From: Candidatus Gastranaerophilales bacterium
GTDB lineage: Bacteria; Cyanobacteriota; Vampirovibrionia; Gastranaerophilales; Gastranaerophilaceae
DNA: 64,000 nt
Reading direction: 5' to 3'
NCBI GenBank assembly: GCA_944323035.1
Contig: CALUQY010000002.1
Span: 1-64,000 of the forward strand
The position numbers were made by a program, and so were the translations under genes. The notes under the pieces were generated by a model, which saw only the letters and a list, made by a program, of their open reading frames with translations, did not search any database and had not been told where the DNA came from. Below, one piece after another: positions 300 through 54,900 of this stretch (positions are counted from its first letter, which is position 1; the number at the start of each line of letters is the position of its first letter).

Positions 300-375
300 C
301 GGGTATGCTTAGATAAATAGTTGTCATATCATATTATTTATAGTATCATAAAACACATCAGAGCAGGGGGAAGTT

Positions 376-1086
376 ATGAAAAAAGGCATCGTTTTATTAG
401 CATTCAGCTTACTATTAGGAACCGGCGCAATTGCGCAGGATACTATTATGATTACGGATTTAGACATGTATAACTTCTGGTCTAAAACCGGTAAATCACA
501 GGAGAAAATTTCGCAGGTCAGCAAAAATTTAATACTTAAAAACAAAATCAACAAAAGAGTTCCGGTCATTGTAACCAGCAATACAGAAGTCAATGCCGTT
601 ACTAACCCTCTTACACGTCAGATAGAAATTTATTCAGGAATTCTGGGGTTGATTGACAACGATGATGAACTGGCTTTTATTATCGGACACGAAATGGCGC
701 ACGCGGTTGAATCTTACGACGGGCCGTTTAAAATTATTGTTAATCAATGGAATTCTAAATCTTATGAATACAAATCCGATTTAAAAGCTATCGATTATAT
801 GGTAAACGCAGGTTATGACCCTATCTCTGCTATGATAATGCTCAATAAATATTCTGCTGAACCTTTGAGCGATTGGGGATTTTTAAACACACACCCGAAA
901 GGTTCTAAAAGATTGCTTGCTATGTACAAATATATTTACAGAAAATATCCGCAATATTTATCAAGCTCAAAAACCAACGATGCGTATTACAAAAATTTTG
1001 AATATATGTTTGAAGAAGAGTTAAAAGGCTTCCGCCATAGCGAATCAGTGCGCAAACAAAAACAACAGGAACGCGAGGCACTGTAA
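376..1086 (+). CDS. Secreted M48-family zinc metalloprotease
   Basis: A 236-residue protein with a signal peptide (residues 1-20, ending AIA) and a compact M48 protease domain. The zinc site is visible: HEMAH at 105-109, and EYKSD at 131-135 matches the ExxAD motif whose Glu is the third ligand. THPKGSKRL near 170 is the usual M48 THPxxxxRL. There is no membrane helix or TPR region, so it is a short BepA/YfgC- or LoiP-like periplasmic form that probably trims or quality-controls envelope proteins. The start has a GGGGGAAG ribosome binding site. The stop overlaps the next start (TAATG), so the two genes are translated together. Family is well supported; substrate unknown. Confidence 0.85.
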   Translation: MKKGIVLLAFSLLLGTGAIAQDTIMITDLDMYNFWSKTGKSQEKISQVSKNLILKNKINKRVPVIVTSNTEVNAVTNPLTRQIEIYSGILGLIDNDDELAFIIGHEMAHAVESYDGPFKIIVNQWNSKSYEYKSDLKAIDYMVNAGYDPISAMIMLNKYSAEPLSDWGFLNTHPKGSKRLLAMYKYIYRKYPQYLSSSKTNDAYYKNFEYMFEEELKGFRHSESVRKQKQQEREAL

Positions 1087-1499
1087 TGAAAAAGTTTCTG
1101 CTGTTATTCATACTGGCAAACCTGCCGCTTAGTGTAACCCCGGCTTTTGCAAAGAAAGAACTCGTCAACATAACACCTGTTGAAAAGATAACGACAGCCA
1201 ATGACAAAGTTATGGAAGGTGATTATGTTAACTTTAAAATAGTAAATACCGACAAAATCCTCCGCGGACTGGTGGTTAAATATGAACCTAACGGAATGCT
1301 TGGCAAAGAGGCAATTCTTGTAATAGATCAGTTTTATGATACCCAAAGCGGCGAAAAATATACCGGAACGCTTGCCCTGAACGGCAGCCAGCACAATGAG
1401 GTTATGGAATATCTCACCTGGTTTGATTTATGGGCGCGTGGCGGTGAAGTTACAATTTTGCCGGATAAAGATGTATTTGGCTTATGGAGAGAAGAATGA
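1086..1499 (+). CDS. Small secreted protein, paralogue of the next gene
   Basis: A 137-residue protein with a signal peptide (about 1-22, ending AFA). The rest is soluble, and I recognise no named domain. Its region beginning ITPVEKITTANDKVMEGDY resembles ISPLEPISTAYDETEVGD of the next protein, so the two are diverged paralogues, each with a short beta-rich domain. It is coupled to the protease gene upstream by a one-base overlap and to the next gene by an ATGA overlap, forming a three-gene secreted-protein operon. Function unknown; co-translation suggests an envelope role linked to the protease. Confidence 0.75.
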   Translation: MKKFLLLFILANLPLSVTPAFAKKELVNITPVEKITTANDKVMEGDYVNFKIVNTDKILRGLVVKYEPNGMLGKEAILVIDQFYDTQSGEKYTGTLALNGSQHNEVMEYLTWFDLWARGGEVTILPDKDVFGLWREE

Positions 1500-2152
1500 A
1501 AAAAATAAATAAAGCAGTTCTACGTCGCCTGCTTGCCCTGCTCCCGCAGGTCAACCCGCGACTGCGCTGTCTAATACGTCACTCAAAAGGCTCGGCCACT
1601 AAGTGGCTCCCCCATTTGGTTCATGAGTTTATGGTAGCGATTGATACAAATATGGCTCCGGCTCAACTGGGCGCGAGCCTTTCTCGGACAATTTTTATAA
1701 CACTTTTACTACTGTTTAATGCAGGTCTGACGATTGCTGCGGAAGAAAAAATTCCGATTAAGATCTCACCGCTTGAGCCGATTTCAACGGCCTATGACGA
1801 AACCGAGGTCGGCGATAATATTCCGTTTCTTGTAGTTGAAGATGTTTATAAAAATGGCAAGCTCTTTATCAAAAAAGGTGTGACAATGTATGGTACGGTC
1901 GATTTTGTCAAAGAAAACGGCTGTCTTGCCGACCATGCAGAAATAGAATTTAAGACTTTCCGTGTCAGAAACGCGCAGGGTAAACTTTCAACGTTTAATT
2001 CAGAACTGCTGTTAACAGGTCTGAACACGTTAAAATGGTATAATCCGCGCTGGAAGAGAGTTATTAATTATTGCACAATGATTTTCCGCGGTAATGAAGT
2101 TGACATAAACCCGAACAACTCAGAACCGGTGTTCAATATCTGGTACAATTAA
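1496..2152 (+). CDS. Secreted protein with a dispersed repeat inserted in its signal peptide
   Basis: The best start is the ATG at 1496, which overlaps the previous stop (ATGA) and follows GGAGAGAAG. It gives 218 residues; an upstream in-frame start at 1484 adds four. The first five codons (MKKIN) and the hydrophobic segment FITLLLLFNAGLTIAA would make a normal signal peptide. They are separated by about 60 codons from an R1 dispersed repeat (1511-1692) with no stop or frame change. An in-frame ATG at 1652, inside the repeat, could restart translation with a 30-residue signal peptide but has no good ribosome binding site. The mature part is related to the preceding protein. Function unknown. 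Confidence 0.7.
   Translation: MKKINKAVLRRLLALLPQVNPRLRCLIRHSKGSATKWLPHLVHEFMVAIDTNMAPAQLGASLSRTIFITLLLLFNAGLTIAAEEKIPIKISPLEPISTAYDETEVGDNIPFLVVEDVYKNGKLFIKKGVTMYGTVDFVKENGCLADHAEIEFKTFRVRNAQGKLSTFNSELLLTGLNTLKWYNPRWKRVINYCTMIFRGNEVDINPNNSEPVFNIWYN
1511..1692 (+). repeat. R1 dispersed repeat, inside a CDS
   Basis: It begins AAAGCAGTTCT, contains CTGTCTAATACGTCACTC in the middle and ends GCCTTTCTCGGACAA. The same landmarks recur at 25134-25352 and 38781-38932, in divergent form on the minus strand at 15600-15716, and as a left end only near 29650. It is GC-richer than its surroundings, carries no gene of its own, and here is read through in frame. It looks like a MITE-like or palindromic repeat. 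Confidence 0.8.
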
Positions 2153-2283
2153 CACGGATAATATCCGACAGATTAATTTTCAATCCCTCGATTTCATCCT
2201 ATTGGTTTATGCATATAAACCTGTTGATTGATGTCTGTTGATTTAAAAACAAGTAATATTGATGTGTAAGAAAAGAGGGATAA

Positions 2284-2874
2284 ATGTTCAAAAGAGTTTT
2301 AACATCATTAATAGTCCTGGGGATGGCTGCACCGGTGAGTTTTGCAGCAGAGAACTTTTTGAACTCTGTTGTCTTTGAGCAAAACGAAGGGCAATATAAT
2401 ATTGTTCTGCGTTCCGATACGCCTGCAAAGGTGAAAAAAAGCTCTCAGGGCAGCGACAAAATTACACTTACCCTGAAAGGTATTAAACCGGCAAATAACA
2501 TAAATACGATTTATAAAAACGTAAAAGGCGCAAACCCGCTGGTAATAGAAAACACAGGAGAAAACGAACTTAAGCTTCAAATTCAGGCACCAAATGCGGC
2601 AAGTGCAAACATAATTTTCAACACACCTGATTCCGCGCCGATATTTGTAGGCGAAAGATTCGGACACGAAAAACTCAACTGGACGCTCACGGTTCTGACT
2701 CTTGCCGGAATTGTCCTCTATTCTACAAACAGAAGAACAAGAAAAGTATGCCAGAGAAGAGAACTGCGCGACAGAGAAATAGAATTCTACAAAGCAAAAT
2801 TACCTAGTATGAACTACAAACCGGAATATAAATACGCAATGAACACAATTAAAAAAGAAACTATACTCAAATAA
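2284..2874 (+). CDS. Membrane-anchored protein with an AMIN-like domain
   Basis: A 196-residue protein: signal peptide (1-21), a soluble beta-rich region (about 22-115) with the VVFEQ...QYNIVLRSD and KITLTLKGI pattern seen in AMIN domains, one membrane helix near 132-148 (WTLTVLTLAGIVLYS), then a basic tail of about 45 residues. AMIN domains bind peptidoglycan and localise envelope proteins, but the match here is only suggestive. The C-terminal helix would leave the domain outside and the basic tail in the cytoplasm. It stands alone, 131 nt after the secreted-protein operon, with AAGAGGGATAA before the ATG. Confidence 0.6.
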   Translation: MFKRVLTSLIVLGMAAPVSFAAENFLNSVVFEQNEGQYNIVLRSDTPAKVKKSSQGSDKITLTLKGIKPANNINTIYKNVKGANPLVIENTGENELKLQIQAPNAASANIIFNTPDSAPIFVGERFGHEKLNWTLTVLTLAGIVLYSTNRRTRKVCQRRELRDREIEFYKAKLPSMNYKPEYKYAMNTIKKETILK

Positions 2875-2910
2875 GAATATAAATCTTTTTTAACAAGCCA
2901 ACACTAAAAC

Positions 2911-4023
2911 TTAAATCCTTTCACGAATAATCTGCTCAATGATTTGGGCAGATTTTCCATTTCCATAAGGATTTTGGGCTTTCAGGCGTGACGCGGAGCG
3001 TTCAACGGAAAGAACTTTTTCACTTTCTGCAATAATTTTATCATAATCAGCCCCGACCAGAATAGAAACACCTGCGTCAATACCTTCTTTGCGTTCGGTT
3101 TCGTAGCGTAAAACTATTGTCGGGCAGGCAAAAGACGGCGCTTCTTCCTGAATTCCGCCGGAATCCGTCAGGATTAATTTGGCATTTTTCATCAGGTAAA
3201 CCAGATTAGGGTAATCAAGCGGAGTTAAAAGTTTTACATTTTCATAACCGCCAAGCCGCGCATGAATTTTATCCTTAACATTCGGATTTGGATGAACAGG
3301 TATAACAAATGTATGATTAGTATACTTTTTGACAAGAAATTCAATCGCAGAAAGAATTCTATCCAGTCTTTCACCGTGATTTTCGCGTCTGTGCGCCGTA
3401 ATCAGAACTAGTTTATCATCAATTTTTACACCTTGAGCGGCAAAGAATTCTCCCGCACGGTTTAGTGTTTCTTCCGTCAGACAGAAAAGTGCGTCAATAA
3501 CGGTGTTTCCTGTCACAAAAATCGTATCGGCAGATATATTTTCTTTCAAAAGTGCATTTTTATTTGTTTCGGTCGGACAGAAGTTTAACGCCGCAATGCG
3601 GGATGTCATCTGCCGCATAGCTTCCTCCGGATACGGCTCAAAAAGGTCATAAGAACGCAGCCCTGCTTCAACGTGAAGCACAGGAATTTTATTATAAAAA
3701 CTTGCCAGAGCACCGCTCAAAACAGTAATTGTGTCCCCCTGAACGACTGTTGCATCAAAGGTTTCAGACTTATAAACCCCGTCCAGCGCCTTCAACAAAC
3801 GTGCCTGAACTTCCAGTAATGTTTGATCAGGTTTCATACAATCCAGATTGTAATCAGCCTTCAGCCCGAAATATTCAAGTGTCTGGTTAGAAAGCTCCTT
3901 CTGCTGCTCGGTGTTGCAAATGCGAACATCGTAAAGTTCCGGAAACTTTCTCAACTCAAGGATTAACGGTGCTAACTTTATAACCTCGGGACGCGTCCCG
4001 AATACAAACAAAATTCTCTTCAT
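2911..4023 (-). CDS. wecB: UDP-N-acetylglucosamine 2-epimerase (non-hydrolysing)
   Basis: A 370-residue enzyme interconverting UDP-GlcNAc and UDP-ManNAc, supplying ManNAc for surface polysaccharide. Family motifs are in order: GTRPE (9-13), QGDT, HVEAGLRS, VTGNTVIDAL, HRREN and the UDP-binding DSGGIQEEAP. Length is normal for WecB/MnaA. It is followed 27 nt upstream on the same strand by lipA, but the two have no obvious functional link. No glycosyltransferase cluster is nearby, so the receiving pathway cannot be told from this window. Confidence 0.93.
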   Translation of the reverse strand: MKRILFVFGTRPEVIKLAPLILELRKFPELYDVRICNTEQQKELSNQTLEYFGLKADYNLDCMKPDQTLLEVQARLLKALDGVYKSETFDATVVQGDTITVLSGALASFYNKIPVLHVEAGLRSYDLFEPYPEEAMRQMTSRIAALNFCPTETNKNALLKENISADTIFVTGNTVIDALFCLTEETLNRAGEFFAAQGVKIDDKLVLITAHRRENHGERLDRILSAIEFLVKKYTNHTFVIPVHPNPNVKDKIHARLGGYENVKLLTPLDYPNLVYLMKNAKLILTDSGGIQEEAPSFACPTIVLRYETERKEGIDAGVSILVGADYDKIIAESEKVLSVERSASRLKAQNPYGNGKSAQIIEQIIRERI

Positions 4024-24265: not shown

Positions 24266-25135
24266 ATGAAATTTAAAGATGAATTTATAAGATTTTTATC
24301 AAAATTTAAAATTGTATTTATAGTTCTAATTTTAGGACTTATAATCCTCAAAGCAATTGACCTTTCGCACATGCGGATAACTGCGGTATTTACGGAATTA
24401 GAGCCTTTTTCCAATATAAATGTTTACTATAAAGGGTTCAAAATCGGACGCGCAGTAAAAGTTGTTCCAAGCAAAGATTTTTTGACAACCAGAGTGACAA
24501 TCGCGCTGAACAGCTGGACTTATAACCTGCCAAACAACATCAAGGTAAAAGTCCAGAAAGCCCAAAAAGATTCCGATGTTGACTACATGGAAATTCTTTA
24601 TCCGGGTTCGCCTTCGCTTACACGTATAAAATATGGCGATAAGGTTGAAGGCATTGTATCCCGCGACTGGAGCGATATTATAAATAACGTTGCGGAAGGC
24701 GGCGGGCTGGATGAATTAAAAGGCAACGCCAACAATCTGCTCGACAGTGCAAACGATGCCGCAAAAAACGTAAGCGCACTTTTAGAAGAGATAACCTCAA
24801 TCCTGAAAGATATTCACCCGCAGATTACGACTGCTGCGAATAATCTTTCAAACACAACTGCAAACCTCAATCTAATGTCTGCAAAACTTGAAAGATCTAT
24901 TGATGATAAATATATATCCAATTCAATCTTCAATGTCCAGAATACGACCAAAAACTTTGAAGGCACAACTCTTCTTATCAACACGAAAACACTTCCTGCA
25001 GTCAATGCAACAATTTGCAGTTTGAAAACATTAATTGATAATATAAATACCATAGTGAAAGGTATAGGCAACACACTGCAAAAACGCATGGGCGGTGCAA
25101 GATTAATCTTTGGCACACCGGTTTCTAAAAGATAA
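24266..25135 (+). CDS. MCE/MlaD-family lipid transport protein
   Basis: 289 residues: membrane helix at about 15-30, MCE domain at about 36-130 (FTELEPFSNINVYYKGFKIGRAV, DYMEILYPG), then a helical region of about 150 residues suited to hexamer or needle formation. MCE proteins carry phospholipids between membranes; in Cyanobacteria the MlaD homologue works with an ABC transporter. No mlaE or mlaF gene is nearby. It starts 56 nt after tolC and its stop codon is overlapped by the left end of an R1 repeat. Confidence 0.85.
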   Translation: MKFKDEFIRFLSKFKIVFIVLILGLIILKAIDLSHMRITAVFTELEPFSNINVYYKGFKIGRAVKVVPSKDFLTTRVTIALNSWTYNLPNNIKVKVQKAQKDSDVDYMEILYPGSPSLTRIKYGDKVEGIVSRDWSDIINNVAEGGGLDELKGNANNLLDSANDAAKNVSALLEEITSILKDIHPQITTAANNLSNTTANLNLMSAKLERSIDDKYISNSIFNVQNTTKNFEGTTLLINTKTLPAVNATICSLKTLIDNINTIVKGIGNTLQKRMGGARLIFGTPVSKR

Positions 25136-25352
25136 AGCAGTTCTTCGCCACCTACCAGGCTTGCTCAAAGCATCAGCCGGTGCTCGCAATGTTGGCACAC
25201 ATGAGTATGACAAGCAGGCGAGCATTACATCTCTACCGTTTCAAATCTTTGATTTGTCAGACAGTAATCGCAAGCCTGCACTGTGGCTCGCTGTCTAATA
25301 CGACACTCTAAAATCTCGCTCACGTTCCTTATCGCGAGATTTTCTCGGACAA
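25134..25352 (+). repeat. R1 dispersed repeat filling the mlaD - 25353 gap
   Basis: Starts AAAGCAGTTCTTCGCC within the mlaD stop codon and ends TTTCTCGGACAA, abutting the stop codon of the convergent gene. The right part folds into a perfect stem, AAAATCTCGC / GCGAGATTTT. CTGTCTAATACGACACTC is present. At 219 bp it is the longest copy; the extra length is in the variable middle. It may serve as a bidirectional terminator here. Confidence 0.85.
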
Positions 25353-34812: not shown

Positions 34813-34841
34813 TGGCAATATAAGTCAAGAAAGGATAGAAT

Positions 34842-36074
34842 ATGAAAAAATTTGCATTAACAATGGCCGGCCGGCTGGAGCGGTCGGCTGAGGCGACCGC
34901 GGAGCGACATCCACAATTGAACCCGGGTGTGAATTCAACAAAAGAGTCTACCGTACTTCGTCATTGCGAGCCGGCTTGCCGGCGTGGCAATCCATCGGCG
35001 ATTGAGCCGGTTTCACATTTAAAAGCCGGGCTTTCGACCACATTTAAGAATGATATTAACCTGCGATGTGGGTTGACTGGATCGCCACGGGCTAACGCCC
35101 TCGCGATGACAAAAAACATTGCTTTTACCATGGCAGAGATACTTCTGTCATTGACGATAATCGGCGTAGTTGCGGCGATAACCTTACCAAGTTTGACCGG
35201 CAACATAAATGAGCGCACATGGAACACTCAAAGAAAAGCTTTATATGCCAGATTTTCACAGGCAATTGCCCTCATGCCCGCACTCAACGGTTACGGAACC
35301 CTTACCGAAGGTGATTCTTCCACTTCAGCAGTAGACACCGCTGCCGAAACCTTCGTCACCAACGGGCTTGCTAAAGTATTGAAAATTAACAACATCTGCG
35401 ATTCAGAGCACCTTGAAGATTGCGGCATCACATCAAAAATAACACCGCTTTCCGGCGGCAGCGCTATTGACGTACCAACAAAAATTTCTGAACTCAATTC
35501 GCTTATGACTAGTGTCGCGGCTTGGACAGATATAAACGGAGTCGTTCATTCGGCAGAAAGTATGATAGATACTAACGCTGCTGCTTTTGAAACTCAAAAC
35601 GGTGAAAGCATTGTAGTATATTACAAACCCGATTGCACAGGGAGTTTAGGAGAAAGCAATTTTCACTACACGCAAAACAAAATATGTGCGAATTTTATTT
35701 ATGATTTAAACGGCAGCAAAGGCCCAAACACCGTTGGCAAAGATATAGGCGTAATAACTGCTCTTTATCCGAGTGACAGCATTGTCGTTGCCCCATTCCC
35801 TCTTACCCGCGCCGCCTCAACATCAATCTCATACACTGCGTCCTCAAAAGAATGCACAAAAATAGATAATGAAAGCCGGCTGCCAAATCTGGAAGAATTA
35901 ATTTCCATGTTCGTAAATGCAAAACTTTTTGCAATGCCGACAGGTATTTATTGGTCAAGTTCCCTAACAACATCCAGCGGCACAACTCAGGCCTGGGCCT
36001 TAGATTTTTCATACGGCCGTCCCGGAAAGTATAATAAAACATCTTCCTGGCGATTATGGTGCGTAAAACGTTAA
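34842..36074 (+). CDS. Prepilin-like protein with a 94-residue repeat-derived leader
   Basis: 410 residues. The conserved type IV prepilin site is A94-FTMAE, with Glu at +5, followed by the hydrophobic helix ILLSLTIIGVVAAITL. The mature domain of about 315 residues ends in a C-terminal FISUMP/DUF1566-like module (YWSSS, WALDFSYGRPG, WCVKR). The leader, normally under 30 residues, starts MKKFALTMA like a normal one, then runs through about 85 codons of dispersed repeats with no stop. The phrase FALTMA is echoed at IAFTMA where the body begins. Product is probably secreted and assembled or anchored after prepilin peptidase cleavage. Confidence 0.8.
   Translation: MKKFALTMAGRLERSAEATAERHPQLNPGVNSTKESTVLRHCEPACRRGNPSAIEPVSHLKAGLSTTFKNDINLRCGLTGSPRANALAMTKNIAFTMAEILLSLTIIGVVAAITLPSLTGNINERTWNTQRKALYARFSQAIALMPALNGYGTLTEGDSSTSAVDTAAETFVTNGLAKVLKINNICDSEHLEDCGITSKITPLSGGSAIDVPTKISELNSLMTSVAAWTDINGVVHSAESMIDTNAAAFETQNGESIVVYYKPDCTGSLGESNFHYTQNKICANFIYDLNGSKGPNTVGKDIGVITALYPSDSIVVAPFPLTRAASTSISYTASSKECTKIDNESRLPNLEELISMFVNAKLFAMPTGIYWSSSLTTSSGTTQAWALDFSYGRPGKYNKTSSWRLWCVKR
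34869..35123 (+). repeat. R2-type palindromic repeats inside the prepilin leader
   Basis: GC-rich segment bounded by the two leader echoes. It contains GTCATTGCGAGCCGG ... GGCGTGGCAATCC (34959-34993) and the inverse partner GGATCGCCACGGGC ... CTCGCGATGAC (35079-35110), i.e. a composite with inverted ends. Related copies lie at 29711-29753 and 43081-43114. Confidence 0.82.
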
Positions 36075-38675: not shown

Positions 38676-38780
38676 ATAACACCTCTTTTTATTGTATTCT
38701 TTTCGGGGTGCTAAATATATATTTAATTTTATAATATATAATGTATTTACTTTTTGAATACAATGCGGTATACTTATAAT

Positions 38781-38932
38781 AAAGCAGTTCTCCGCCGCTC
38801 CGCCTCGCTGAACCGCGAGCCGTGGCGGCTTCGCTGTCTAATACGCCACTCAAAAGACTCGCTTGCGTGAGCGGGAGTTGCGCCGCAACTCATTCACGCC
38901 ACGTTCCTTATCGCGAGCCTTTCTCGGACAAT
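38781..38932 (+). repeat. R1 dispersed repeat upstream of adhE
   Basis: Begins AAAGCAGTTCTCCGCCGC and ends GCCTTTCTCGGACAA, with CTGTCTAATACGCCACTC in the middle. The inner part holds inverted pairs (GAGTTGCGCCGCAACTC). It lies 34 nt before the adhE -35 box and 105 nt after the RHH gene start. Confidence 0.85.
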
Positions 38933-41827: not shown

Positions 41828-43270
41828 TCAATCACGTTTAACACAACGAATTGGAGCTGCAGCATTACGCTCCGCACGATACAACCTTGCTCCGGAGAGC
41901 ATAGATTGCATCCAACCGACAGTTCTGCCGCTTGCGTCAATTGCAGTTCCGGAAGTCCAGTACCACGTACTGCTTGTCGCCAAATTCCCGATAATATTTT
42001 TATTAACAAACAGAGCAGCTGCTTCATCTTTGTTCGGCAAGCGATACTGGCTGTCCTGCTGCGTACAAACCTCTGCAGCGCTGAGTGTTCCGTCAGAAGA
42101 AGGCTTTTGAGGAGCGGAAGCTGCATCCCGCGCATAAGCCAGCGGCGCAACGACAACACTATCTGTCGGGTAAAATACCGAAATTGTTCCGATATCTTTT
42201 CCGTAAGTATTAGGGCCTTTTTTGCCGTTCAAGTCATATATAAAGTTAGCGCAAAGCCTAACCTGTGTTGCATCCCATGCAATATTTGATTTCAAATCCG
42301 GCTGGCAAAGCGGATTATAATAGACCGCAATACTTTCGCCGTTTGCCGTTTCAAAAGCAGCGGCTTTTGTATCATATTGGTTATAAGAATACGTAACACC
42401 GCAATAAGTCATGCTGGTGATATCAACAAGCTGGGAGTTCAATTCTCCAAAAGTATCCGGAAATGCATCCAGAGTGCTTCCGGCAAGTGTAGTTATTTTA
42501 TCAGGCAGACCACAATCAGATAATTTGTCATAGGAACAAATATTATTTATTTTTAGGACTTTAGAAAGCCCGCCTGTAACAAAGGTTTCGGCGACAGTAT
42601 CAGTAACAGAAGTCGAGCCTGCAGAATCGGTATCTTCCGAGTAAGTTCCGTAACCGTTAATTGCCGGCATAAGTGCAATGGCCTGCGAAAACCGCGCATA
42701 AAGGGCTTTTCTTTGCGTGTTCCAGGTGCGCTCGTTGATGTTACCTGTAAGTGACGGTAGCGTAATCGCTGCCACAACACCGATTATCGTGAGGGATAAC
42801 AATATTTCTGCCATGGTAAAGGCCAAGCCGAGCAGAGCCACGGAACAAGGCTTGCCTTGTGTAGAGTCGAGCGCGCGACGCGGCGTGCCTGAGGCACTTC
42901 CCCGATACGTTGGTAGGTTTTGTCGTAACGTTATAAGACCGGCTTTGCCGGCGCGCTCTTTCGCGCAAGCGCGAGCGTTGGCGTTTGCGTGAGCGAGCGG
43001 AGTGCGGAGTGCTGAAAGCACGTAGGCACGTTTTCCGCGAGTCGAACAAGAAAACGCGAGGCGCAGTACCAACGTTGACTGGATTGCCACGCGGTCTACG
43101 ACCGCTCGCAATGACGAAATTTTGTCACCCTGAACACTTTTCAGGGTCTGGCCAATGTTGGATACCTGCTCGTATTGTGGAACAGATTCCGCATCAAGTT
43201 CAGGATGACAATTATAGGCTTTCGACTCCTCAATTGTGCCTGTTAAGAGAGGCCCCCCCCCCCCCTGCAT
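41828..43270 (-). CDS. Prepilin-like protein with a repeat-derived leader and a poly-G start
   Basis: Open from an ATG at 43270 for 480 residues. The prepilin site A150-FTMAE (Glu at +5) and helix ILLSLTIIGVVAA match the gene at 34842, and the first 60 mature residues are almost identical in protein though not in DNA; the C-terminus has the same module (WYWTSG, VGWMQSM, IRCVKRD). The better start is an ATG at 43295 after GGAAAGGATAGAAG, but with the 13 G present it is out of frame by one; 12 or 15 would connect it. The ATG at 43270 lies against the G tract without a ribosome binding site. The 150-residue leader is repeat-derived. Confidence 0.75.
   Translation of the reverse strand: MQGGGGPLLTGTIEESKAYNCHPELDAESVPQYEQVSNIGQTLKSVQGDKISSLRAVVDRVAIQSTLVLRLAFSCSTRGKRAYVLSALRTPLAHANANARACAKERAGKAGLITLRQNLPTYRGSASGTPRRALDSTQGKPCSVALLGLAFTMAEILLSLTIIGVVAAITLPSLTGNINERTWNTQRKALYARFSQAIALMPAINGYGTYSEDTDSAGSTSVTDTVAETFVTGGLSKVLKINNICSYDKLSDCGLPDKITTLAGSTLDAFPDTFGELNSQLVDITSMTYCGVTYSYNQYDTKAAAFETANGESIAVYYNPLCQPDLKSNIAWDATQVRLCANFIYDLNGKKGPNTYGKDIGTISVFYPTDSVVVAPLAYARDAASAPQKPSSDGTLSAAEVCTQQDSQYRLPNKDEAAALFVNKNIIGNLATSSTWYWTSGTAIDASGRTVGWMQSMLSGARLYRAERNAAAPIRCVKRD
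42821..43252 (-). repeat. Dispersed repeats forming the prepilin leader
   Basis: About 430 bp of GC-rich repeats read in frame. Seen on the plus strand: GGATTGCCACGCGG ... CCGCTCGCAATGAC (43081-43114) and GTCACCCTGAACAC ... GTTCAGGATGAC (43125-43209), the second homologous to 29767-29851. The rest (42840-43080) includes GCGCGCTC-rich inverted segments. Confidence 0.8.
43253..43265. repeat. Homopolymer tract of 13 C (13 G on the minus strand)
   Basis: Lies between the ATG at 43295 and the long prepilin frame. With 13 G the frame from 43295 stops at a TGA shortly after the tract; with 12 or 15 G it joins the 480-residue frame. Confidence 0.85.
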
Positions 43271-43292
43271 TAATTCTTACATTGTGGTTTTT

Positions 43293-51913: not shown

Positions 51914-54900
51914 AGGAAGTCAGTTTTTCTATATTTGCACCCAAAGTTTGCAGCATACGTTCCATTTTATCCACTTTTTGAATAATTGATACATTGCTGT
52001 TTAACTTTGTCATTTCGGTAAGTTCATCTATTTTTGTTTCAAGCCTGTCCATACGGGACTGCTGTTCTTCAAAACGTTCTTCAAGCAGGTCAATGAGAGC
52101 CAGTTTTTCCGGAACGGTTTTTCTCAATTCCGAAAGCGCCTCGGAAACATCATTAATTTCATCGGCTTTATCATTAATATTTTCAATTGTATCAGATGCT
52201 GCGTCAACCCATTCCCCGAGGTACATCAACACTTTGTGGAAGGTTTCATCCATGGATGCTGCCTCTTCCTGCATTGCCATAATTCTTTCCAATTTTTCAG
52301 CAGTTTCTTTATTAAATTCTTTATTGGAAAGCTCATTCATACGTTCTTCAAGATTAAAGGCAATATGGCTGAACGCTGTAAGCCCGTCCGCAATAGTTCT
52401 TTGCGATTCATCGGAACTTAAAAGCAGTTTATTTGTTCTTGAGCTGATACTTAAAATATCCTCATTGAGTTTAAGAATATTCTGTTTCAGCTGATAAATT
52501 TCGGCAGGTGTAAGGTTTCTGCTTATCGCATCAACTGATGAGGTAAGATTGTGGATATTACGCGAAATCTGATTAAACTCCGCAGACGGTGCCGGCGTAG
52601 AGGCGGAAAGATCATTCATTGCCTGTCTTAATTTGGCAATATCGCTTTCAACATCCGCCAGAGTGTACGAATAATCCGCGACATCGTTTTGTTTTATGGT
52701 TTCAATCTGTGATTTTACGTCTATTAACTGTTTACTTAATTCTCCGGTTTTTTCTTCGACAAAATCCTTAATATCTTCTGTTTCTTCAACAAAATTAGAA
52801 CTACTGAAAACAGAAACTATTGTGTTCACTAAATCTTCTTTAATTTTGGAAGAATTTTCATCATGTTCGGAGATTGTATCGGAAATCCCGTCAATTTTCG
52901 TGAGAAGTTTTTCAATATTCTGCGTAACGGCAGTATCTTCTTTAGTATTTGAACGATTAAGGATTTCCTTCTGTTCAAGAATTATATCCTTAATTTCCTG
53001 CAATTCATCCTCAAGTAAATCGCTGTCATTTGTAGAAACAAAGACATCCAGTTTTGTATGAAGTTCTTCCATCAAATTTTTACTGGAAGAAACCCTGTCC
53101 AGAATCTGATCAAATTCATTGGAGAAGTCCAGAGAATCGACTTTTGAGCTAAGGTCTTTAATCAGACCGCTGTTATCAGAAATTTGGGCGCCCAGCTCAT
53201 CAAAATTTTCCTCATAATCAGAACCGGCAAGGATATCCATTTTTGTATCTAATTCTTTCAGCAGAGAATTATTTTCAGAAACTTTACCGGAGAGTTCATC
53301 AAAATTTTCCTCATAATCAGAACCGGCAAGGATATCCATTTTTGTATCTAATTCTTTCAGCAGAGAATTATTTTCAGAAACTTTACCGGAGAGTTCATCA
53401 AAATTTTCCTCATAATCAGAACCGGCAAGGATATCCATTTTTGTACCCAATTCTTTCAGCAAAGAACTATTTTCAGAAACTTTACCGGAGAGTTCATCAA
53501 AATTTTCCTCATAATCAGAACCGGCAAGAATATCCATTTTTGTACCCAATTCTTTCAGCAGAGAACTATTTTCAGAAACTCTGCCGGAGAGTTCGTCAAA
53601 ATTTTCCTCATAATCAGAACCGGCAAGGATATCCATTTTTGTATCTAATTCTTTTAGCAGAGAATTATTTTCAGAAACTTTACCGGAAAGTTCGTCAAAA
53701 TTTTCCTCATAATCAAGCGTTGCAAGAGCATCTACCTTTGCATCAAGACCGGTTATAGCCGTTCGGGTTTCTGCTATTTTGTTTAAAATTTCTTCAAAGT
53801 CATCAGAATTATCAACTGCCGCAAGAATATCCAACTTGGAATCAATCTCATGGATGAAATCAAAAATTTTACGGTTAAGTTCTGTTGTTTCCGTATCATT
53901 TTTAGCAAGTTCCGCAATGGCAGCAAGGTTTGCAGCCTTTTCATTTAAATCTTCAAAATATTCCAGAAATTTTTTATTAAAGAGCATTTGTTTATCTGAA
54001 ACATTATTGAAATCAATATTCAAAAGGCTGTCAACTTTTGCATTAAGGATTTGGACAAGTTCCTGTGTTTCTTCACTTTGCGAGAGAATTTCTTCGGTTA
54101 AATCATTACCTGCAATAGTATCAAGTTTTGCACTTATGCTTTCAAGGAGTTTATTATGTGCTTCGGTTGCGTCTTTTGCATGCAGACCGGATTCTATAAG
54201 TTCAAAATTGTTAGTCTTTAAAGCTTCATATAAATCCTTAAACGCCTGTGTAAACTGTTCCTGAATAATAACAAGTTTATCGTTATAGTTTGATGAATTA
54301 ACAGAGATAAACTGTTTTAATTCTTCAAGAGAGTTATTAATTTCAAGCTGGGTAGTTCCGGAAAGTTCATTATATATAGTATTAAATTCCGCAATAAAGT
54401 CATTAAGCTGCTTATTTAACGCTGCAATATTCTCTTTATATTCAACGCCGGAAGCTTTCAGGCTCTCTTCAAGAGTAAGCATTGAGTCAGAAAACGTTTC
54501 TATTTTAGAATAATAATCCTGAACTTTTTGTGATTCTTTCTGCAAAAGTTCGGCTTCTTTATTCCGCATATCAATGGCAATGTCTGAAAACATTGTTTTC
54601 ATCTGCTGAATTTGCTCTTCAAGAAACTCCGTTTTAATATTAAAGTTATTGTTAAAGATTTCGATTTTTTCAAACAAATCCGCGATATTCTGTGTAATAT
54701 CAAGTTCTTTTATTGCCTCAAAGATATCTTCATTCTGGTTTTTATCGGTATAGTCAGCTATCTTATTAACGGATTTAATAATATTCGCTGAATAGTCCTG
54801 TAAGACTTTGATTTCGGAAAGCGTATCTTCTGCAACATCAGTTACAGTTTTCAGTTCACCGGCAACTTTTTTGGAAGTATACTCCGGCAAAGAATCCGCT

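Follow-up and report, generated by a model that had tools for sequence, protein, structure and literature searches.

The window analysed here, a 64,000-nucleotide stretch of a Candidatus Gastranaerophilales genome (G000), carries a gene for a secreted protein whose signal peptide is interrupted by a mobile repeat, R1. The open reading frame (1496–2149, forward strand) encodes 218 residues that comprise MKKI (codons 1–4, 1496–1507), 61 residues read from the repeat, the remainder of the signal peptide with its hydrophobic core and cleavage region (IFITLLLLFNAGLTIAA, 1691–1741), and a mature part beginning EEKIPIKI (1742–2149). The Shine–Dalgarno sequence GGAGAGAAGA (1486–1495) sits within the 3′ end of the upstream gene, with an ATGA overlap, and is identical in congeners that lack the repeat. 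A Pfam search with the secreted protein matched no family.

The inserted unit, which runs AATAAAGCAG...CTCGGACA and is read as NKAVLRRLL...LGASLSRT, occupies positions 1508–1690 on the forward strand, or 183 bp and 61 codons, and the frame remains open throughout. These ends are taken from the empty sites of other copies. Comparison of empty sites between G000 and its sister genome G003 places the first three bases, AAT before AAAGCAG, within the inserted unit. In GGACAA the final A is flanking sequence and, being a shared base, leaves the boundary uncertain by one position. A sequence-only reading of the window had recognised a dispersed repeat lying in frame inside a signal peptide; repeat, frame, and surrounding signal peptide are each confirmed. 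The same reading gave the repeat as 182 bp adding about 60 residues; repeat-derived residues do lie in frame, but the unit is longer by one base pair. The landmarks proposed as exact boundaries prove to be internal or one base over, and the proposed span of 1496–1700 is slightly too wide at both sides.

The repeat-free allele implied by that reading exists in five congeners (G001, G002, G004, G005, and G006), and the congener comparison revealed no unrelated 60-residue domain in this position. The mature part of the window protein shares ~81–83% identity with four of these repeat-free congeners and ~46% with G005. When the 183 bp, a length fixed by the empty sites of other copies, are excised in silico, the sequence preceding EEK becomes MKKIIFITLLLLFNAGLTIAA, whose 21 residues equal the length of MKKLVLTFLILLVSAGMSFAI in G004. 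The sister genome G003, with flanks ~96% identical, holds the same insertion, and the event would date to the ancestor of G000 and G003.

Copies, hairpins and recent movement of the repeat

The genome contains 119 instances of the left-end 16-mer AAAGCAGTTCTNCGYC, distributed over both strands. Because its reversed control occurs 0 times, this abundance is not due to chance. Searching the genome with the whole repeat returned 49 matches, from full-length to partial. Two further copies matched by sequence in the window (25131–25351 and 38778–38930, both forward strand) are apparently intergenic. The family is present in all seven genomes of the genus, with 119, 98, 33, 28, 24, 14, and 9 left ends (119 in G000 and 9–98 in the six congeners), and the left end is absent from all 52 other genomes of the same family, order, and class. 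Among these 59 genomes the family is restricted to one genus, and most matching database records are titled Candidatus Gastranaerophilales or Melainabacteria. Carriage by phages was also considered and rejected: the core 19-mer has no match among 2.9 million viral contigs, and 104 viral stretches with a single 16-mer match each look like chance.

Both flanks could be mapped between G000 and G003 for 22 sites, and 11 of these lack the element in the counterpart genome, two of them with rearranged flanks; the family has therefore been mobile since the two genomes split. In most of these comparisons, AATAAAG...GGACA is added cleanly with no target duplication; some empty sites are imprecise or can be read with a duplication of 3–4 bases. 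The sites left without the element are A/T-rich and often end in TA, and they show no clear common cleavage tetranucleotide.

Copies span 45 to over 430 bp. The simplest common form (~105–120 bp) consists of an invariant left end, a left hairpin, a middle segment GCTGTCTAATACGCCACTC that is conserved among copies of this form, a right hairpin, and an invariant right end. Longer copies add optional hairpin inserts in many combinations, 16 of which were found in a rough pattern count of 154 distinct copies. In the window copy, read directly, the left subterminal hairpin (GTCGC ... GCGAC stem) lies at 1524–1563, and its right counterpart (AAAAGGCTCG ... CGAGCCTTT stem), whose loop contains a longer optional insert, lies at 1585–1682, both on the forward strand.

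Both stems covary, the left one in 30 copies. Together they contain 65 cells with compensatory changes on both sides compared to 20 in shuffles, and 98.4% of stem cells are paired compared to 37–43% when slid. Only two cells are of the G-U type. This near absence of G-U pairs would favour selection on single-stranded DNA, or correction of the palindrome, over selection on RNA. A known RNA family was likewise rejected, given that Rfam returned no match over the repeat at the five loci examined.

Elsewhere in the window, two similar prepilin-like proteins (34839–36071 and 41831–43276) carry leaders of ~90 to 150 residues before FTMAEILL, apparently built from other dispersed repeats. Long poly-C tracts preceded by GG are found at 85–100 and 43251–43265. 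A tandem array at 53037–53828 has six overlapping copies at 99-bp spacing with 69–90% identity to the reference copy.

Translation and fate of the host gene

Judging from the sequence, translation most likely still starts at position 1496. Because the Shine–Dalgarno sequence and this start are conserved, and the in-frame ATG codons at 1631 and 1652 within the repeat (1631–1654, forward strand) lack a Shine–Dalgarno sequence, a long-leader product is the default expectation. The protein would now be made with a basic N-terminal region of ~65 residues ahead of the export signal, and this region would be lost if the signal is still cleaved. We infer that the extended protein continues to be exported and cleaved and that the insertion was nearly neutral.

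The sequence-only reading had instead raised the possibility that the repeat supplies a new start codon. Initiation at 1652 (or 1631) would yield MAPAQLGASLSRTIFITLLLLFNAGLTIAA, with a signal peptide of normal length, and this shorter product would resemble an ordinary signal peptide. Moreover, a second signal-peptide insertion, described below, contains a GTG after GAGG that would give MRRRTALLIICILAGLGVSA. However, the native Shine–Dalgarno sequence before 1496 is unchanged and common to the congeners, and other copies of the same inner module differ around the internal codons, neither of which has a ribosome-binding signal of its own. A start provided by the repeat is thus not borne out here, and we consider it quite improbable.

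Another possibility is that, since the insertion, the protein is effectively no longer made or exported normally, and that the gene is an early pseudogene whose frame is open by chance. An open frame across this GC-rich element is not rare, since at least one is present in 79% of real copies and in 69% of shuffled ones. In addition, the repeat RNA folds strongly (−64.6 kcal/mol) just 3′ of the host start codon. Evidence for selection consists of only four changes in a locally very similar region: G000 and G003 differ at four positions across the gene, three of them synonymous and none within the repeat, a pattern weakly compatible with constraint. The surrounding interval (373–3039) diverges from G003 by ~0.4%, which is unusually low compared to ~4% over 5 kb and possibly reflects recent recombination. 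However, both filled genomes keep the frame open, with the repeat unchanged and a single amino-acid change in the protein, and the Shine–Dalgarno sequence, hydrophobic core, and mature part are all intact. For these reasons, we regard a pseudogene as rather unlikely.

We favour, with good confidence, the explanation that the gene has been kept intact. A non-autonomous, genus-restricted hairpin element would have entered a Sec signal peptide precisely after codon 4, ahead of the hydrophobic core, and the host gene would have survived because the element, by chance, spanned 61 codons and was open in the required frame.

In-frame copies in other genes

A reverse-strand copy in G003 (C1:61612–62028) lies within another signal peptide, which reads MKKIILPLI, then 39 residues, then LIICILAGLGVSAEG; the G000 orthologue is empty and reads MKKIILPLIFICTVTGLSVSAEG. 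ThiL of G004 also carries an in-frame copy, and five congeners align to its residues 1–169 and about 203–331 without the insert. A CbiM-like protein of G000 has an in-frame copy after its first hydrophobic segment, and its Pfam CbiM match starts at profile position 28, just past the insert. In-frame copies are likewise present in an MMPL-like protein of G003 (reverse strand) and in two membrane proteins of G004. Empty orthologues back the window gene, the G003 signal peptide, and ThiL; the CbiM-like, MMPL-like, and two G004 membrane protein cases are candidate insertions. Several further overlaps with open reading frames are terminal or lie upstream of likely starts; an 810-residue frame in G006 was discarded as an in-frame case for the latter reason.

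The view that the insert is tolerated because it falls in a part removed from the mature protein gains from the second, independent signal-peptide insertion in G003. However, the ThiL, CbiM-like, and MMPL-like copies indicate that this is not a general rule.

Given that in-frame insertions recur in several species, the element might be a coding module that selection favours for inserting into proteins in a preferred reading frame. However, the in-frame copies use at least two forward frames as well as the reverse strand, and real copies contain only slightly more open frames than shuffled ones (1.55 versus 1.31 per copy). Because frames and strands differ and the excess of open frames is so small, a selected coding module is very improbable. 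Moreover, in-frame copies amount to a few percent; of the ~200 copies inspected in G000 and G003, hardly any lie in frame within a gene. The in-frame copies would instead represent rare surviving coding insertions, for which no selected new function is needed.

Mobilisation and relation to known elements

Within long stretches, 41 of 46 copies have the top strand of the element on the G-poor strand (Fisher P = 8e-8). On contig C3 of G003, where the GC skew reverses near 100 kb, the orientation of the element flips as well. With this bias, the inferred lagging-strand template would carry the bottom strand (TGTCCGAG...CTTTATT), a preference also described for IS608 and ISDra2 (PMC6006769). Movement of the element probably takes place at the replication fork in single-stranded form, the bottom strand being on the lagging-strand template; we lean only slightly towards this mechanism.

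A driver was not identified by searching the seven genus genomes with the Y1 transposase profile (PF01797) or by examining candidate RAYT and reverse transcriptase genes. The Y1 transposase is missing from six of the seven genomes, and the sole PF01797 gene, in G000, encodes a REP-associated transposase (RAYT; locus L127, contig C23, 1290–1941). This gene has its own GTAG-tagged REP (GTAGGTTGGGC...GCCCAACCTAC) and is itself interrupted near its N terminus by R1 in reverse orientation; being confined to G000, tied to a REP of its own, and broken by the element, it was rejected as the driver. A GTAG-type REP is also found in the window at 157–176 (GTTGGGCTGGCAAGCCCAACCTAC), where a deletion spanning it separates G003 from G000, so REPs vary here too.

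A reverse transcriptase of similar length is encoded in each of the seven genus genomes. The single enzyme in G000 (L181, contig C16) belongs to a probable diversity-generating retroelement with an Avd-like open reading frame and a possible template repeat, and it was set aside as a driver on this judgement of its sequence and neighbourhood. Because no cognate Y1 transposase was found, the mobilising enzyme can only be postulated, presumably acting in trans. Both the strand bias and the G-U-poor covariation suggest that selection acts on single-stranded DNA, and the missing mobiliser offers a concrete target for searches.

Elements of the IS200/IS605 type have subterminal hairpins and prefer the lagging strand (PMC6006769). 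R1 resembles their non-autonomous derivatives in having subterminal hairpins with covarying stems at both ends, in lacking a target duplication at most empty sites (a few being ambiguous), and in its replication-strand bias (41/46). Unlike them, it has neither a cognate Y1 transposase nor a full-length autonomous relative that could be found in the genus. REP and REPIN sequences mobilised by RAYTs share its dispersed palindromes and single-stranded logic, and one RAYT is present in G000; however, R1 has no GTAG/CGTC-type foot by the palindrome, its ends being those given above. It also differs from a classical MITE of a DDE transposon, since its ends are not inverted copies and there is no constant target duplication.

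The closest known kind is the Rickettsia palindromic elements (RPEs). According to one review's account, these are short palindromic repeats of ~150 bp, found in frame within unrelated protein genes of one genus (PMC10969869, citing Ogata 2000 and 2002); they reportedly code for a conserved peptide, with close to half located in open reading frames (PMC10969869). Compared with this description, R1 is likewise a short, genus-restricted palindromic repeat. It also shows recurrent in-frame insertion alongside repeat-free orthologues (the window gene, G004 ThiL, and the G003 signal peptide). In contrast, it occurs in an unrelated lineage, lacks a shared peptide frame, and is in frame in only a few percent of copies. 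We know of neither a replication-strand bias nor combinable hairpin modules in RPEs; both are features of the Gastranaerophilales element.

Our literature search, whose coverage excluded most subscription journals, found no paper describing this element. We tentatively raise the possibility, doubtful at this time, that it represents an undescribed class of single-stranded DNA element in Gastranaerophilales, with interchangeable hairpin modules, that is moved at the fork by a non-Y1 enzyme, lodges in frame, and remodels export signals. Rickettsia is said to stand out for how often mobile repeats spread in frame among its protein genes, and the same outcome is seen here in a gut lineage within the cyanobacterial phylum. 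Because empty and filled alleles exist side by side and movement has been recent, it becomes testable which places (signal peptides, membrane loops, and enzyme loops) accept such inserts and how these affect export. The element works like an RPE in outcome and resembles non-autonomous single-strand transposons in anatomy. It stands apart from both because the defining features fail: the copies share no reading frame, as RPEs would, and have no cognate Y1 transposase, as IS200/IS605-type elements would.
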